Below, piece after piece: positions 1-5,359 of a stretch of 5,359 nt of DNA (the stretch's first letter is position 1; the number at the start of each line of letters is the position of its first letter). The translations under genes were made by a program, and so were the position numbers. The notes beneath the pieces are model-generated. The model saw only the letters and a list, made by a program, of their open reading frames with translations. It did no database searches and had not been told where the DNA came from. Origin of the DNA: Clostridia bacterium (GTDB taxonomy: Bacteria > Bacillota_A > Clostridia > Oscillospirales > CAG-272); the NCBI GenBank assembly GCA_017630995.1, contig JAGBUD010000125.1:1-5359 (forward strand), read 5' to 3'.

Positions 1-111
1 CTTCAACTTGACCCAAATCGGAAAGTAGGACATCACCGCGAGCGCGGTGGGCACTACCGCAAGGATAATGCCTATTGCCGAAAACAAAAGCTTTCTGTTT
101 CTATCGCTCAT
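1..111 (-). CDS. Holin-like small membrane protein, N-terminal part (cut by window edge)
   Basis: Only the first 37 codons are visible; the gene runs off the left edge. It starts with ATG at 111, and that ATG overlaps the TGA stop of the preceding gene (ATGA, 4 nt shared), so translation is probably coupled; only a weak GGTGG lies upstream, inside the preceding gene. The peptide begins MSDRNRKLL, a positively charged head, followed by a hydrophobic stretch at about residues 8-34 (FSAIGIILAVVPTALAVMSY, then FPIW) and then Lys residues, as in a membrane-spanning segment. From memory, small phage proteins with an AVVP...SYFP pattern sit near the end of structural modules in gut Firmicutes phages and are often labelled holin. 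That label is inference, because the second half, the presence of a second membrane helix and any downstream endolysin cannot be seen. It could equally be a small membrane protein unrelated to lysis. Confidence 0.6.
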   Translation of the reverse strand, partial: MSDRNRKLLFSAIGIILAVVPTALAVMSYFPIWVKLK

Positions 112-827
112 TTTTCGCCACCGCCCGCAAGTCGTTTCTTCATTTCGCTTATTTTCTCACCCACGTTGTCCTTCGAGTATTGGGGCAGGGAGCTGTGCAT
201 AAAAACGTCGTAAAGCATTTCCACCTCGGTGAGCATTGCTTCCTTGAGGCTTTGAATTGCGGCTCTCTCCTCGTCTGCCTCCCTGATTCTCTCGCAAATA
301 AGCTCTATGCTGTTTGAAAGCTCCTCAACGGTGTTTTCGCAAAACGCAAATCTCTCCGAAAGAAACTTAACCGTTTCCTCGGTCTTTTCGATTGCGCAGC
401 TTGCCTGCTTTTCAAATTTTCCAACGCTGCCGCCAAGGCTTGAAAGGGCGGCTTTCACAAGGGGGATAAGCCCCTTTTTATATGCAAACGCAAGCACGAG
501 CGAAGCTATAAAGGCAAGGGCGGAGAGAAACTTGTCTATGTTTTCCAGAGTGAAGTCATACATCACTTGAAATAGGCTCTCGTCCGCACCCGTGTCGCCT
601 AAAACGTCACCTTTTTCTTCATTCTCTGTGAGGTATGAAGGGTTTTCCGTTAGGTTTTCATCGCTTGAGGTGCCACCCGCAGTCTCGAGCGCGCAAGGCT
701 CTTCTTGGGTGATGGCGGACTCATTCTCCGCGCCGCCGCTATCCTTTGCAAATGCCGCAAAGGAAAAGGAGAAAAGCAGGGCGCAAATTGCCGCCGCGCA
801 TAAAATTTTCTTGAATATCTTTTTCAT
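108..827 (-). CDS. Signal-peptide, single-membrane-span, coiled-coil phage protein of unknown function
   Basis: This 239-aa protein has no function I recognise with certainty. Residues 1-27 form a classical signal peptide: MKKIFKKIL head, hydrophobic core, and AFA-KD as the likely cleavage site. Residues 28-90 are acidic, low complexity (Glu, Ser, Thr, Asn, Gly) and carry one Cys (45). Residues about 97-116 (DKFLSALAFIASLVLAFAY) form a membrane span followed by KKG. Residues about 133-205 are charged and helical with heptad-like spacing, suggesting a coiled coil, and the tail is basic (MKKRLAGGGEK). The positive charge after the span predicts an outside N-terminus and a cytoplasmic C-terminus. 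The start is ATG at 827, preceded by AAAGGA at 5-nt spacing. It lies between a coiled-coil tail-type protein and a holin-like gene, whose ATG overlaps its stop. Candidate roles are lysis accessory, membrane anchoring during DNA entry, or superinfection exclusion; none is proven. Confidence 0.85.
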   Translation of the reverse strand: MKKIFKKILCAAAICALLFSFSFAAFAKDSGGAENESAITQEEPCALETAGGTSSDENLTENPSYLTENEEKGDVLGDTGADESLFQVMYDFTLENIDKFLSALAFIASLVLAFAYKKGLIPLVKAALSSLGGSVGKFEKQASCAIEKTEETVKFLSERFAFCENTVEELSNSIELICERIREADEERAAIQSLKEAMLTEVEMLYDVFMHSSLPQYSKDNVGEKISEMKKRLAGGGEK

Positions 828-854: not shown

Positions 855-1250
855 TTAAAATATGGTTTTTCCGTATACCGCAACGTAAAGCTCGGAGAAT
901 GCCTTTTCGAGCCTTGCGTTCTTTTCCGTTAATGCGGCGAGGTGCTTTGCAAGGAGTCTTGCGCTCTCATCGGCGCTCCTTGCGAGCGTGATTCTTCCCG
1001 CCTCGCATTTTATCGGCTCGCAAAGAAATTCCTTGCCGTCTGCGGTCTTGATTATCGGAGTCAGTATGCCGCGTCCGAGAAGGTCGGTTTTAACTGTCGT
1101 GTGGTCACCGTTAAGGAAAAAATCCTTTCCGCCCAAGATAAGCTTTGTATAGCTGCCGCCTAAAAAGCGAAACCTTATTTCGCTTTCGCGTCTTTCGTCG
1201 AGGGTGCATATCACGTAAGTGTCGCCGAGCCTTATGTATTCAATAAGCAT
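855..1250 (-). CDS. Small phage protein with beta-rich N-terminus and C-terminal coiled coil (probable tail-associated)
   Basis: This 131-aa protein has two visible parts. Residues 1-90 alternate short hydrophobic and polar strands (for example EIRFRFLGG, TKLILGGKDFFLNGDH, GILTPIIKTADG) and look like a compact beta sandwich. Residues about 92-125 are a heptad-patterned helix (ARLLAKHLAALTEKNARLEK) likely to oligomerise, and the protein ends in KTIF. This layout resembles, from memory, small proteins beside tail genes in Firmicutes gut phages and is compatible with a trimeric fibre or baseplate decoration; that role is inferred. The start is ATG at 1250, sharing one base with the TAA stop of the upstream gene (TAATG), with a strong GAGGAGGT ribosome site 7 nt ahead. 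The strong site plus overlap suggest high, coupled expression. Twenty-seven nt separate its stop from the next gene. Confidence 0.85.
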   Translation of the reverse strand: MLIEYIRLGDTYVICTLDERRESEIRFRFLGGSYTKLILGGKDFFLNGDHTTVKTDLLGRGILTPIIKTADGKEFLCEPIKCEAGRITLARSADESARLLAKHLAALTEKNARLEKAFSELYVAVYGKTIF

Positions 1251-1540
1251 TAGTTTACCTCCTCAATTTCGAGCCTTGCTTTTATTATTGCTATGTCGGA
1301 TTGCATAGTCTTAAACGGCTCAAGAGTTATGAGAAATTCTCCGAGTGCCCCGCTTTCAACGTCGTCAACGAGGGTGTTGAAGCTCTCGATTATTTTGAGC
1401 GGAAGCTTGTCAAATGCCGCCTTCATCTCGGTGGGCGTGTAACCTTTTCCGCCAAAAGCGGTGGGCGCCGTCGGCCTTGTGGGGAGTGCGGCAATCTTGA
1501 GGGGTTCAATCTCCGAACTAGTGATTTTTTTAGTGTTCAT
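1250..1540 (-). CDS. Small conserved-looking phage protein of unknown function (after tail nozzle gene)
   Basis: This 96-aa protein has no recognised enzyme or binding motif. Residues 1-18 are polar, residues 20-33 are a Pro/Thr/Gly-rich flexible stretch (PTRPTAPTAFGGKG), residues about 36-61 form a predicted amphipathic helix (TPTEMKAAFDKLPLKIIESF), and residues 63-93 form a second, partly coiled helix. I recall similar short proteins with the APTAFGGKGY-type stretch next to tail genes in gut Firmicutes phages, without a proven role. A conserved loop followed by helices would suit docking onto the tail, but this is inference. The start is ATG at 1540 with AGAGGA 6 nt upstream. It follows the nozzle gene after 44 nt and overlaps the next gene by 1 nt (TAATG), so it belongs to the same operon. 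Confidence 0.85.
   Translation of the reverse strand: MNTKKITSSEIEPLKIAALPTRPTAPTAFGGKGYTPTEMKAAFDKLPLKIIESFNTLVDDVESGALGEFLITLEPFKTMQSDIAIIKARLEIEEVN
1257..1264 (-). promoter_or_regulatory. Strong ribosome binding site inside the end of the upstream gene
   Basis: The minus strand reads GAGGAGGTAAACTAATG. The near-perfect anti-16S match GAGGAGGT sits in the last codons (Glu-Glu-Val-Asn) of the 96-aa gene, 7 nt before the ATG of the 131-aa gene, so the same bases encode protein and drive the next start. It is the strongest such site in the window and fixes the start at 1250. Confidence 0.85.
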
Positions 1541-1584: not shown

Positions 1585-4275
1585 TTAGGTGTATTTGATT
1601 CTGCCTGCAACCGTAAATCTGTAGGATACGGTTTCAATGGCAATCGGTGAGCAAAAATCGTCGCAGTAAAACGCGAGCGCCTTTTCAACCCACCCCTTTT
1701 CTTTCTCCTTTATCGGAATTGTAACGCTATCGCGTGAGTCGAGGGTGAGGGAGCTGAAATTCCAATTTGAAAAATCGGGAGCCTCGTTTGGCAGCGCGCA
1801 AAGCTCGCTATATCCCGCCTTGTCGGTTTCAACCTCGCAGCGCAGCCGTCCCGCACCGCTCAAATCGCATTTGACGGTCAGCGAGTTTTTAACCGTGTTT
1901 TTGGCAAGACCGCCCAAGCCGCAGTTGTCCGAAGCGGTAACAAGGGCGCACCTCATCGCGTGGTCGTGAAAGCCGTAAAAGCTTGGGTGAAGCCGCGAGC
2001 CGTAAGCCACCTTGTATTCCTCAAGGTTGAAATCGGGTGAGATGGAAATCTGCGCGGGCGGAATCCCGCGCATATCGTTATTGAATATGCAAAGGTCGCC
2101 GTTGTCGGTTCCAAAAAGGAGCAGGTCATCGCCTATACATTTGAGGTAGGTGAGGGGGTGAAATTCTCCGCCAACCATTTCCTCGGTGGCGTAAACGCAA
2201 ATTTTATCATCTGCGTTCTTGACGTAATATATAAACCCGTCCTCGCCCATATCGCTGAAAACGGTTCCGCTCGCCACCTCGTCGGGATATGGGAAAACCT
2301 TGTACCCCGCGGGAGCAATATGCGAGTATCTATATACCCGTGTCGCCTTTTTATAGGTTCCAACGTGGTTAAAATAGAACCATTCATACTCTCGCGAGCC
2401 TGTTTCGTGGGTAAAGGTCGCTCTTGAATCTGCAAGGAATATCTGCCCGTTAATGCCAATGGCAAGGTATCCGCACCATTCGGTGAGCGTGGCTTTTGTG
2501 AGGTCCTCGCAAAGCAGACGCGCGTTGACGTTATGCGAGCGCGCCGCAATGCTTCGCTCAAGGTTTATCGTGCGCTTGTCGAGAGCGAAAACTCCGTTCT
2601 TTGAAATAAATATCGGGTCGTCGAAAAAGGATATCGCGCCGCCGATAGCTCCGATTCCGTTGTGGGTGTAAGCTATCGGATAGGTCTTTGGTATGAAGTC
2701 GTCGCCCGTTTCCTTTGGGGTGTGGTAGAAGATACTGCCGCCACCGTCGTCGCCCTTTTTGAAAACGGCAAGGGAGTCTGCCAAGGCGAGCATTGCCGTT
2801 ATCGGATATCTTCCAACCCCGTCGGAGAGGAAGTTGTACGAGCCAAAATAAAGCTTGCCATCTGTTTTCTCGGTTTCCCTTGCGGAGAAGAATACGGTGC
2901 CGCCAAGCTCCGCGTTTCCCGAAAGGAAAATGCGCCCGTCGAATTTCTCGCAAACCGTGCAAGCCGAAATGGCAGAAAATCCGTCACCCGCATGGCCGCA
3001 TTTCTCGAAAATACCAAGCGCACTACCCGATTCCGCGTCGGAGTCGTATTCCCAAACGCCCGAAATCACAACCTCCTTGCCCTCAACTGTGCGTCTGTCG
3101 TCAATGGGGAAGATTATGCTCTTGATTATGCCGTTTTCCCAAATGGGAAAGTAGCTGGGAGGCTCCTCGCCACCAAGGGTAACGGTGAGGATTTCTCTCG
3201 TCCTTGTGCAAACGGGAATTTCAACCGTTATCGAAAGGTCAGCGGAAAAGTATTCGAACAAAATCCCGTCGAAAAGCTCGTGGTTTTCGACGCTTTCAAA
3301 GTCCTCCTTGTTCGAGGCATAGGAAACCGACGTGAGTGACTCGCAACCGTCGCTAACCGCCGCACCAAGCCTTTCAAGACCAAGACCAAGGTAGAGCTTA
3401 TGCAGTGACGTGCAGCCCGAGAACGCACCCGTGTCAATTATTCCGATGCTGTCGGGGCAAAAAACCGATTGCAGCGCGGTGCAGCCCTTAAATGCGAATT
3501 TTCCGACGCGGTAAACGCCCATGGCGATTTTTACACTGTAAACCGTTCTGCTTTCGAGAAACGCGTTGTCGAAAATCTCGTAAACCTTATATAGCTTTCC
3601 GCCAATCCTCGTGTATGCGGGAATATTAATCTCGCCGCCCTGAAAGCCTTGGGAAATTCCGATAACCGCGCAAAGTCCCTTTTCCTCGTTCGTTATTCCG
3701 TAAAGGAGGTCCGGGGTGCCGTATGAAACAGTTTCTGCCGCGCCTATCACGTATTTTTCCTTGAATTTATTAATAAGAAGATTTTTCTGTTCAAAGGGTA
3801 GAGCGTTGAGATAGGTGGTCGGAACGTATGCGTCCTCCTCGGAGCTTGTAATTCTTCTTGTCGCGCCGCTATCGTCAATTCTGATTATTCCGCCGTCGTC
3901 GACAAGGTAAAAGGTATTTCCAAGCAAAAATCCAATGCTCTTTGAATCCCGCGCGTCAAAAATCGGGGCAAGTGAGAAAATCATATCCTTGTCCTTTGTA
4001 TTGAAGCGGTATACCTTGTCCCCCGCGTGCACTATCACGTATTCCTCGGAGGATGCGTCGCGTTGGGTGTAAATTCCGTGTATCTCGCCCGCAAGGGTGG
4101 TGAGAAGTCTGAAGCCCGGGGCGCTTTCAATTACCGAGCCGCCGCGTCCGCTATAGTCCTTATACATATTTTCAAGGTAGCGAAACCTCTTTCTTTCCGA
4201 GGTCGTGGCAGAGAAGTCCACTCCGCGCATATCGCGCAGTGTGAGGGTGTATTCGTTTTTTCCTCTCATTCCCAT
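1585..4275 (-). CDS. Tail nozzle / DNA-stabilisation-type phage protein with inserted leucine-rich repeats
   Basis: This long gene encodes 896 aa from ATG at 4275. That ATG shares a base with the preceding stop (TAATG); an in-frame GTG at 4284 would add 3 residues, and I prefer the ATG. Residues here are numbered from the GTG. Residues 10-150 carry GVDFSATTSERKRF, a Tyr/Gly-rich strand set and two short blades (VIVHAGDKVYRF, LLGNTFYLVDDGGIIRI) like a beta-propeller. Residues about 190-330 are a BspA-like leucine-rich-repeat insert. Residues about 440-740 resume propeller-like blades (CEKFDGRIFLSGN, GSIFYHTPK, SKNGVFALDK, YLAIGINGQIFLADSR, DLLLFGTDNGDLCIF). Residues 790-899 are a beta-rich end domain. 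The arrangement and position after an adaptor gene resemble, from memory, short-tailed phage nozzle proteins (P22 gp10 and T7 gp12 type), which close the tail and hold DNA in. No frameshift is visible. An alternative is another tail-tip protein. Confidence 0.8.
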   Translation of the reverse strand: MGMRGKNEYTLTLRDMRGVDFSATTSERKRFRYLENMYKDYSGRGGSVIESAPGFRLLTTLAGEIHGIYTQRDASSEEYVIVHAGDKVYRFNTKDKDMIFSLAPIFDARDSKSIGFLLGNTFYLVDDGGIIRIDDSGATRRITSSEEDAYVPTTYLNALPFEQKNLLINKFKEKYVIGAAETVSYGTPDLLYGITNEEKGLCAVIGISQGFQGGEINIPAYTRIGGKLYKVYEIFDNAFLESRTVYSVKIAMGVYRVGKFAFKGCTALQSVFCPDSIGIIDTGAFSGCTSLHKLYLGLGLERLGAAVSDGCESLTSVSYASNKEDFESVENHELFDGILFEYFSADLSITVEIPVCTRTREILTVTLGGEEPPSYFPIWENGIIKSIIFPIDDRRTVEGKEVVISGVWEYDSDAESGSALGIFEKCGHAGDGFSAISACTVCEKFDGRIFLSGNAELGGTVFFSARETEKTDGKLYFGSYNFLSDGVGRYPITAMLALADSLAVFKKGDDGGGSIFYHTPKETGDDFIPKTYPIAYTHNGIGAIGGAISFFDDPIFISKNGVFALDKRTINLERSIAARSHNVNARLLCEDLTKATLTEWCGYLAIGINGQIFLADSRATFTHETGSREYEWFYFNHVGTYKKATRVYRYSHIAPAGYKVFPYPDEVASGTVFSDMGEDGFIYYVKNADDKICVYATEEMVGGEFHPLTYLKCIGDDLLLFGTDNGDLCIFNNDMRGIPPAQISISPDFNLEEYKVAYGSRLHPSFYGFHDHAMRCALVTASDNCGLGGLAKNTVKNSLTVKCDLSGAGRLRCEVETDKAGYSELCALPNEAPDFSNWNFSSLTLDSRDSVTIPIKEKEKGWVEKALAFYCDDFCSPIAIETVSYRFTVAGRIKYT
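3295..3717 (-). other. BspA-type leucine-rich-repeat cassette inside the nozzle protein
   Basis: The boundaries are approximate, covering residues about 190-330 (numbered from GTG 4284). It opens with a cap resembling those of BspA-family surface proteins (LLYGITN..., GGEINIPAY, KLYKVYEIFDNAF). About four 23-residue units follow between residues 234 and 323. Three exact-period positions are visible: Cys 268, 291 and 314, with Gly at 267, 290 and 313 and Leu at 271, 294 and 317. Ala-Phe pairs recur at 241, 264 and 287. Typical unit cores are FKGCTALQSV, FSGCTSLHKLYLG and DGCESLTSV. It ends with VSYASNKEDFESV, like the end cap of such arrays. The family (LRR_5) is common on surface proteins of Bacillota, Bacteroidetes and Treponema and often mediates binding. 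A receptor-binding role here is inferred. Confidence 0.85.
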
Positions 4276-4277
4276 TA
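4273..4277 (-). promoter_or_regulatory. TAATG stop-start overlap, adaptor to nozzle gene
   Basis: On the minus strand the TAA ending the 279-aa gene and the ATG of the nozzle gene share one A. Only a weak G-rich stretch (GGGGTGGG) precedes it, so the nozzle gene probably depends on ribosomes finishing the upstream gene. This helps choose ATG 4275 over GTG 4284. A matching TAATG occurs at 1248-1252. Confidence 0.7.
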
Positions 4278-5114
4278 TGCCCACCCCGTAACGTTGCGGT
4301 ATCCGCCGCCGAGGCGGCGGGTATCGTTATATCTCGTCGCGCGGAGCGCGTCCTTGTAGAGTGAAAGATAAAATTCCGCCTTGTCAGCATCGTCGTCAAG
4401 CCAATAGTAAGCCGCAGCAAGAAGTGCAACGAGATGTTCGATTTCAGAGGGGAGCGAAAGTTCCTCGCCCAAGTTGTCAAGGCTCACGTGTGGTGCTGCC
4501 GCCTTGTAGGTGAGGTTGACTCTGCCGCTAAAGCTGCTTGGCAAAATCAGCTTTTCGTCTAAAAGGTGCGCGCCCGAGATTTCTTTTTCTTCTGCGTCAA
4601 GCGGCAGGGAGGAGAAGGAATGAAAATCGGGTGCGAGCGATTTCATTCTGTATTCGTACGGGTGGGAATAGAGGGGGATTTCTTCCTCTCTCACGGTAGA
4701 AAGAGCGGAAAACGTGGCAAGCGAGATAACCGCAAACCGACTCTCTCCGTAAAACTCTATTTTTGCCTCCGAGGAGATAAAACCGCGCCATACCGCCGTA
4801 GGCGTGTCAAATTTATGCTCGGTTTTCTTGCCGCCCTCCGTTATCGAAAATGCGCCTCTGCCGCTCGTTTTAAAGGAGTAAGCCTCGCCTGTCAGCAAAT
4901 ACTCTTCTCTCTTTTCGGGATTATGGCGCAAAAGCTCGAAAATCAGGCTCGGCTCTGTCGGATAATGCTCAAGTGTGAGCGTTTTGTAAACCGAGCGCTC
5001 GGTGTAAATCGTTCTTAACGCGCGCCGCACCGCAATTATAAAATTCTTGTCGGCACTTATTTCGCTGTCAAAGCCGAGCGCCGATATTTCATCTTTTAAA
5101 TCGTTAAGTGTCAT
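4275..5114 (-). CDS. Head-tail adaptor-type phage protein (portal-nozzle connector)
   Basis: This 279-aa protein has three parts. Residues 1-48 are helical (MTLNDLKDEI..., FIIAVRRALRTIYTE). Residues about 50-205 are a beta-rich region with a recognisable strand at 115-132 (EAKIEFYGESRFAVI). Residues 222-258 are a long helix, with PSEIEHLVALLAAAYYWLDD followed by KAEFYLSLYKDALR, a pattern common in phage neck adaptors, followed by a basic tail ending VTGWA. Neck adaptors of P22 gp4 and T7 gp11 type are shorter (about 170-200 aa), so the beta domain may be an insertion. The role inferred is to sit between portal and nozzle and extend the tail channel. The start is ATG at 5114 with AGAGG 5 nt upstream. 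The stop overlaps the nozzle start. I am fairly sure of the structural module, less sure of the exact neck position. Confidence 0.8.
   Translation of the reverse strand: MTLNDLKDEISALGFDSEISADKNFIIAVRRALRTIYTERSVYKTLTLEHYPTEPSLIFELLRHNPEKREEYLLTGEAYSFKTSGRGAFSITEGGKKTEHKFDTPTAVWRGFISSEAKIEFYGESRFAVISLATFSALSTVREEEIPLYSHPYEYRMKSLAPDFHSFSSLPLDAEEKEISGAHLLDEKLILPSSFSGRVNLTYKAAAPHVSLDNLGEELSLPSEIEHLVALLAAAYYWLDDDADKAEFYLSLYKDALRATRYNDTRRLGGGYRNVTGWA
4303..4320. repeat. GC-rich inverted repeat near the adaptor gene end
   Basis: CCGCCGCC (4303-4310) and GGCGGCGG (4313-4320) are perfect complements with a 2-nt gap, in the codons for Arg-Arg-Leu-Gly-Gly-Gly of the 279-aa protein. In RNA a slightly larger loop would form. 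It lies about 28 nt before the nozzle ATG and could affect ribosome passage or start access. It may also simply reflect the RRLGGG codons. Confidence 0.35.
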
Positions 5115-5195: not shown

Positions 5196-5359
5196 TTACA
5201 TATTGCTCGTGGTGCTGTCGTAAGCGTAAAGGATATGCTTGTAGGAGCCGAAGCCAACACCGAATCTGCATCTGCCGTTCCACACGTAGTTGCCGGTATG
5301 GTTATCCACCCAGTTGGTGACGGTCAGAGGTACACGGTTGAAGAACATGTTGCCGCAAA
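5196..5359 (-). CDS. Probable major capsid protein, C-terminal end (cut by window edge)
   Basis: Only the last 53 codons plus TAA (5198-5196) are visible; the start lies beyond the right edge. The readable peptide includes CGNMFFNRVPLTVTNWVD, GNYVWNGRCRFGVGFGSYKH and a tail ILYAYDSTTSNM. Aromatic and Gly-rich strands and a short polar tail suit the C-terminus of a phage coat protein. From memory, gut Firmicutes phage coat proteins often have an NRVP...W.D..TGN..W.GR.RF.GF-like end; that comparison is unverified. Position supports it: directly upstream of an adaptor gene, followed by a strong hairpin, as capsid genes often are. It could instead be another head protein. The start, full length and fold cannot be judged. 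Confidence 0.6.
   Translation of the reverse strand, partial: CGNMFFNRVPLTVTNWVDNHTGNYVWNGRCRFGVGFGSYKHILYAYDSTTSNM

Follow-up and report, generated by a model that had tools for sequence, protein, structure and literature searches.

The DNA analysed here, hereafter the window, is a stretch of 5,359 nucleotides from a Clostridia bacterium (assembly GCA_017630995.1, contig JAGBUD010000125.1). Genes for a major capsid protein (MCP), a head-tail adaptor and a tail nozzle protein follow one another in it, in the order found in podovirus tail nozzle loci; the Pfam match of the adaptor lies slightly below the cut-off. The nozzle protein carries a BspA-type leucine-rich-repeat (LRR) solenoid in the slot at its tip. 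Its parts are as follows.

1585..4284, reverse strand: tail nozzle protein, 899 aa from a GTG start (896 aa from an alternative ATG at residue 4)
3295..3720, reverse strand: BspA-type LRR solenoid with N-terminal cap, residues ~189-330 (Pfam LRR_5, PDB sequence and fold matches, model pLDDT 91-96)
3295..3639, reverse strand: core of the LRR profile, residues 216-330
2965..3768, reverse strand: nozzle insertion slot, residues 173-440, holding the LRR and the beta-rich part after it (alignment of 253 nozzle proteins)
3052..3264, reverse strand: six strands following the LRR, residues 342-411 (from the strand patterns of two models), which may correspond to the small tip domain found in LRR-less relatives
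3769..4113, reverse strand: probable blades 1 and 2 of the propeller, residues 58-172 (from the strand count of the model)
2365..2964, reverse strand: propeller core, residues 441-640, the best conserved part of the family (alignment, model, identity comparison)
2125..2361, reverse strand: beta-rich, fast-evolving stretch, residues 642-720, by its position a possible fibre dock (compare the T7 and SU10 papers)

A leucine-rich-repeat solenoid in the nozzle tip slot

LRR_5 (PF13306) was the sole Pfam family above cut-off in the nozzle protein (residues 236-327, 48 bits against a cut-off of 27.7, E 1.5e-12). Solved BspA-type LRR proteins matched by sequence, 4fs7 at 1.5e-28 and, with the family profile, at 1.8e-58. 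When residues 190-330 were shuffled 1000 times, the best value was 0.38 as compared with 1.2e-41 for the real sequence. The predicted structure contained an LRR solenoid at pLDDT 91-96, with fold matches to LRR structures in the PDB. An earlier note, made from the letters of the window, had named such an array together with its repeat registers, and both were correct. Register and solenoid fold are those of the BspA/LRR_5 structures 4oju, 4fs7 and 4gt6 and of TpLRR (6mlx); as compared with these solved proteins, the array here is short, with about four units, and is set between two parts of a propeller protein.

The same note had called the protein a tail nozzle, which the model bore out: the predicted fold, a platform plus a beta-propeller, matched those of SU10, T7 gp12, P22 gp10 and Pa223. 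Comparison of the nozzle family profile with SU10 gp17 and T7 gp12 showed no sequence similarity, and neither the nozzle nor the adaptor protein had a match in NCBIfam. Platform and propeller are shared with SU10 gp17, T7 gp12, P22 gp10 and the crAss001 muzzle, and a tip domain is likewise inserted in the propeller of SU10, crAss001 and T7. Known nozzle tip domains have an Ig-like, beta-barrel or crass fold, whereas this one is a BspA-type LRR. The strand count in the single-chain model is consistent with a tip insertion between blades 2 and 3. If the protein forms a hexamer, like the solved nozzles, each tail would carry six copies of the LRR. Among the literature matches listed, there was no report of an LRR in a nozzle or a phage tail.

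Presence and history of the LRR among nozzle relatives

Relatives were sought with residues 345-899, leaving the LRR out of the query. This returned 585 proteins, 120 of them listed, and PF13306 was present in the precomputed Pfam annotation of 119 of these 120; the remaining one (P0072, 606 aa) matched a local LRR profile at 7e-7. The array was essentially gap-free and of fixed length in 116 full-length sequences, that of the window included. A query from an LRR-less relative reached both LRR-less and further LRR-bearing nozzles (132 proteins, 120 listed). In an alignment of 253 nozzles the LRR was present in 186, absent from 66 and weak in one, and the slot measured 84-475 aa overall and 84-391 aa in the LRR-less proteins. 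Presence was scored with a local profile built on the clade of the window, which very divergent LRRs may escape and which conflicts with precomputed Pfam for two proteins. The small tip domain of LRR-less relatives gave a weak hhalign match to the part after the LRR (probability 8.9).

Viral contigs yielded few LRR nozzles. From a first scan the best 80 of 279 relatives were kept, as 79 loci; among the 74 new loci examined, the local profile found an LRR nozzle solely in L032. Two scans for other LRR lineages added two loci, L110 and L111, the latter on the same contig as L049. On one contig whose nozzle is LRR-less by the local profile (L088), a separate 276-aa open reading frame (ORF) bears an LRR.

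Core trees were built with the insert excluded. Their basal lineages were LRR-less (small-slot forms, L028, L051, the L038 group and P0216). The clade of the window was entirely LRR-bearing, with support 100 (85 rows in one core tree, 12 in another), and the remaining branches were mixed. LRR presence changed six times on these trees, and well supported branches forced at least three changes or two, in counts that do not separate gains from losses. The 28 LRR-bearing rows of a 60-row set were rejected as one clade (AU p 1.2e-25, on a quick tree with long branches). On these trees the LRR insertion is a derived state, gained and/or lost more than once. The earlier note had also proposed that the module was captured. 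That it is an insertion relative to LRR-less relatives stood; a recent or one-off capture was rejected, given the fixed length, a GC content of 0.513 against 0.509 in the rest of the gene, its presence in the listed close relatives and its occurrence on several branches.

Evolutionary rates within the nozzle were compared in 723 pairs at matched core divergence. Mean identity was 0.535 for the LRR, 0.565 for blades 1-2, 0.505 for residues 642-720 and 0.446 for residues 335-435. The LRR fell below blades 1-2 in 472 of the 723 pairs, so that it evolves slightly faster than those blades. For L010-L020, the pair of lowest dS, dN/dS was 0.45 for the LRR, 0.44 for residues 340-440, 0.13 for the large terminase (TerL) and 0.064 for MCP. 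Strong diversifying selection on the LRR was borne out neither by identity at matched core divergence nor by dN/dS.

Neighbouring genes and the chromosomal cassette

Around the nozzle gene lie the following genes, named by their place in a cassette of related loci.

4275..5114, reverse strand: head-tail adaptor protein, 279 aa (Pfam SU10_adaptor, 25.1 bits against a 27-bit cut-off; 37-40% identity to cassette adaptors)
5196..5357, reverse strand: C-terminal end of MCP, cut by the window edge (86-88% identity over 50-51 aa to cassette MCPs)
1250..1540, reverse strand: c4, tail-fibre anchor stub, 96 aa, with an N-terminal domain as in longer genes of LRR-less relatives (60-69% identity over 67-70 aa to cassette c4)
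855..1250, reverse strand: fast-evolving gene in the c12 position, 131 aa (by position; weak match, E 0.001, to c12 of locus L006)
108..827, reverse strand: c7, 239 aa, with a signal-peptide-like start, a hydrophobic stretch and a coiled coil by eye (matches c7 in 26 loci)
1..111, reverse strand: start of c9, a small membrane protein that by eye resembles a holin, truncated at the edge of the window (c9 matched in 20 loci)

The window is assigned to this cassette family because its MCP end shares 86-88% identity with cassette MCPs and its remaining genes have matches, in the same order, among those of the cassette, the match to c12 being weak. A near match to the window was not found in the phage collection. 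The genome relatives were metagenome-assembled genomes of Clostridia (22 loci, 19 of them with a ruminant sample). Their usual gene order is TerS-TerL-portal-c13-scaffold-decoration-MCP-adaptor-nozzle-c4-(c18-c19)-c12-c7-c9-c6, where TerL, portal and MCP were named by family matches, TerS (small terminase) by a weak match and the remainder by position; TerS to c6 spanned 10.6-14.6 kb in 18 loci. In one genome (L182/L183, G377:C14) the cassette is rearranged, with TerS-TerL-portal downstream of c9 rather than upstream of the scaffold gene and an ABC-F gene further on. In related prophage-like loci (L146, L149, L152, L153 and L027-L029) a very large ORF, of ~840 to 2440 aa, lies upstream of the genes for the capsid. 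Gene c7 stays next to the membrane proteins c9 and mostly c6 (window; L003-L023), even where the fibre anchor is gone.

Host-type genes lie directly at both ends of most mapped cassettes. Upstream, 12 of 19 loci had an ABC-F gene, which in two cases lay behind one antisense ORF. Downstream, 10 of 18 had a DinG-like helicase gene, often with genes for MTAN, LuxS and GlyRS after it. The farther flanks in genomes G001 and G011 held genes for signal peptidase II, pseudouridine synthase, peptidyl-tRNA hydrolase, a tRNA synthetase, YidC, MnmE and ATP synthase, among others; three flanking ORFs there had no Pfam match. Tyrosine-recombinase matches occurred somewhere in 15 of 16 and in 10 of 10 genomes searched, and on the cassette contig in one of the 24 genus genomes. 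A serine recombinase was present in 6 of the 16 genomes searched and on the cassette contig in none.

The cassette is widespread in one genus. A survey begun from three genomes, which returned the same genus each time and counts as one result, found cassette MCP, free of internal stops, in 56 of the genus's 69 species genomes, of whatever completeness (E <= 1e-100). In a family sample of 395 genomes, 35 had an MCP match at 1e-40, 17 of them in the genus; among the 18 outside, identity exceeded 60% in G559 alone, where a weak tyrosine recombinase lies ~12 kb from the MCP gene. The nozzle bore an LRR in 23 of 24 mapped genus genomes, and the LRR-less one, G718, has a 928-aa anchor gene. Across 12-13 genomes, protein distances correlated with those of RpoB (all p <= 0.001) for TerL (r 0.67), portal (0.58), adaptor (0.52), nozzle core (0.50), LRR (0.44), c7 (0.74) and c6 (0.64); rank correlations were lower. 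Three pairs gave dN/dS of 0.04-0.07 for MCP and 0.05-0.13 for TerL.

Directly after the nozzle gene, c4 has a conserved N-terminal anchor domain. In relatives the same domain stands at the start of proteins that also have collar (L085), collagen (L027) or fibre-repeat and tail-tip (L033) domains, and of other long ones of no clear family. The anchor gene was 80-295 aa in 25 LRR loci (median 134; 96 in the window) and 109-1160 aa in 39 LRR-less loci (median 526), in a sample where L114 and L116 duplicate L003 and L013 and where several of the LRR-less contigs are almost the same. It was absent after the nozzle in three other LRR loci (L032, L113, L115), where the next gene is c7-like by eye and, for the L113 and L115 genomes, also by BLAST. 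In L028 (12607-14322) the nozzle is LRR-less by the local profile and a 571-aa anchor gene bears LRR_5 (E 2.1e-18, best stretch residues 361-453); the LRR module can thus be part of a fibre-type gene, as in this relative, or of the nozzle, as in others.

Nature of the element and role of the tip

We propose that the head-tail cassette, with its LRR in the nozzle tip slot, is a domesticated element of the genus resembling a gene transfer agent (GTA), whose tip LRR binds recipients and aids nozzle opening; we give this reading as a whole an even chance. The element would be inherited mostly vertically and would not propagate as a phage, a view taken from the relatives because the window has no flanks of its own. 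The earlier note called the element a phage, which is doubtful: the relatives are chromosomal cassettes, mostly on integrase-free contigs, in most sampled species of the genus. Contact of the LRR with a receptor or mucus, which the note suggested, is a reasonable inference from its position. The likeliest mechanism is contact of the tip LRRs with the surface of the recipient, which would help to set off nozzle opening. The exposed LRR faces, placed at the tip by the computed position and fold, would bind a surface structure of the recipient, taking over wholly or partly the work of the tail fibres of relatives. Contact at the tip would assist nozzle opening and thereby the delivery of DNA, a mechanism already suggested for the tails of T7 and crAss phages; the conjectural parts of this proposal are the binding, its partner and the trigger. 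Host genomes encode many ORFs of their own that match the LRR part of the profile, so that a host origin of the LRR and recognition of kin are possible. The tip may come from host adhesins, bind kin and replace a fibre whose anchor survives as a stub.

Several observations weigh against this proposal. RpoB distances track those of scaffold (r 0.26, p 0.06) and MCP (r 0.12, p 0.22) unclearly, rank correlations are low, and dS is high in two of the three dN/dS pairs. In G012 an integrase lies 8.6 kb from the nozzle gene. Cassette contigs differ widely in size, and on those of G002 (8.8 kb) and G718 (19 kb) the absence of an integrase says little. No endolysin was recognised. The LRR is not the fastest-evolving part of the nozzle. 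LRR nozzles coexist with long fibre genes in L184 (G658; a 683-aa anchor gene) and L110 (a 600-aa collagen protein), and c18 and/or c19, fibre-like by eye and without a Pfam match, are kept in 9 of 21 LRR loci of the genome scan. A clean exchange of fibre for LRR was rejected as a rule on the strength of these cases, of intermediate anchor genes in LRR loci (L186, 338 aa; L004, 295; L112, 290; L009, 288) and of short ones in LRR-less relatives (L107, 109 aa; L088, 176; L085, 203).

We consider it rather unlikely that the element is an ordinary temperate phage of gut Clostridia, or a prophage in decay, whose nozzle is decorated with an LRR; the common neighbours would in that case mark a favoured insertion site. 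LRR-less relatives do lie on contigs of ~40-48 kb, and the window is a fragment without flanks. Second capsid matches in G003, G004 and G012 (52-56% identical, E <= 1e-100) and a second nozzle match in G005, in a prophage-like locus with an integrase ~19 kb away, resemble separate prophages. Against a phage stand the integrase-free cassette contigs of 23 of the 24 genus genomes, the host-type borders on both sides, the uninterrupted MCP in most species genomes and the low dN/dS.

That the LRR is merely an architectural tip (serving as a spacer, supporting the gate or protecting the mouth of the nozzle) binding nothing outside the particle, we regard as unlikely. It would fit the fixed length in 116 relatives and the small excess in rate over blades 1-2. 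It does not readily account for the same kind of module on the L028 anchor gene, for nozzles of the same core both with and without the LRR, or for the short anchor gene beside the LRR in the clade of the window. A tailocin-like or PBSX-like particle, killing relatives by an LRR targeting tip rather than delivering DNA, is improbable: terminase, portal and capsid genes are still recognisable and have low dN/dS, and a killing device would need them less, a weak argument because PBSX packages DNA too. In favour of such a particle, packaging genes alone do not prove delivery. The authors of FpGTA, a GTA-like element of Faecalibacterium, leave such a role open for their element (Borodovich et al. 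2026, PMC12946183).

The domesticated GTA-like element we favour has its closest published counterpart found in FpGTA, which is podovirus-like, lacks replication genes and was present in all twelve Faecalibacterium genomes its authors examined (PMC12946183). Likened by description, both are podovirus-like elements of gut Clostridia whose operon encodes TerS, TerL, portal, scaffold and MCP; FpGTA comprises a 10.5 kb operon and a second one of 5.5 kb with fibre, receptor-binding and lysis genes (PMC12946183), whereas here there is a single cassette of 10.6-14.6 kb. The words 'leucine-rich' and 'nozzle' do not occur in the main text of that paper (PMC12946183), and among the literature matches listed there was no GTA report for Clostridia or the rumen beyond FpGTA. 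As a definition of a GTA we used the six points of Kogay et al. 2022 (PMC9662315): besides the three taken up below, these are packaging of mostly random host DNA, a particle too small to hold its own genome and delivery of DNA to other cells. Particle proteins derived from Caudoviricetes are present (TerL, portal, MCP and nozzle matches). Endogenisation is favoured by the host-type flanks and integrase-free contigs of relatives, with other excision routes possible, and vertical inheritance by the MCP distribution, with mixed distance correlations. Since one of the six points is thus borne out and two are favoured, we call it GTA-like and not a GTA. More tentatively, it may be a podovirus-type GTA of most species of a ruminant gut Clostridia genus, putatively separate from FpGTA, that recognises recipients through the BspA LRRs of its nozzle tip.

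To our knowledge, recipient choice by GTA-type particles is poorly known. Few GTAs have been described outside Alphaproteobacteria (PMC12946183). Related elements hold different domains in the nozzle tip slot, and the LRR is a module that sits on the nozzle in some of them and on a fibre in one relative. An identifiable adhesion-type module at the tip where DNA leaves, in a cassette spread across a genus, would offer a concrete, testable part for recipient recognition.
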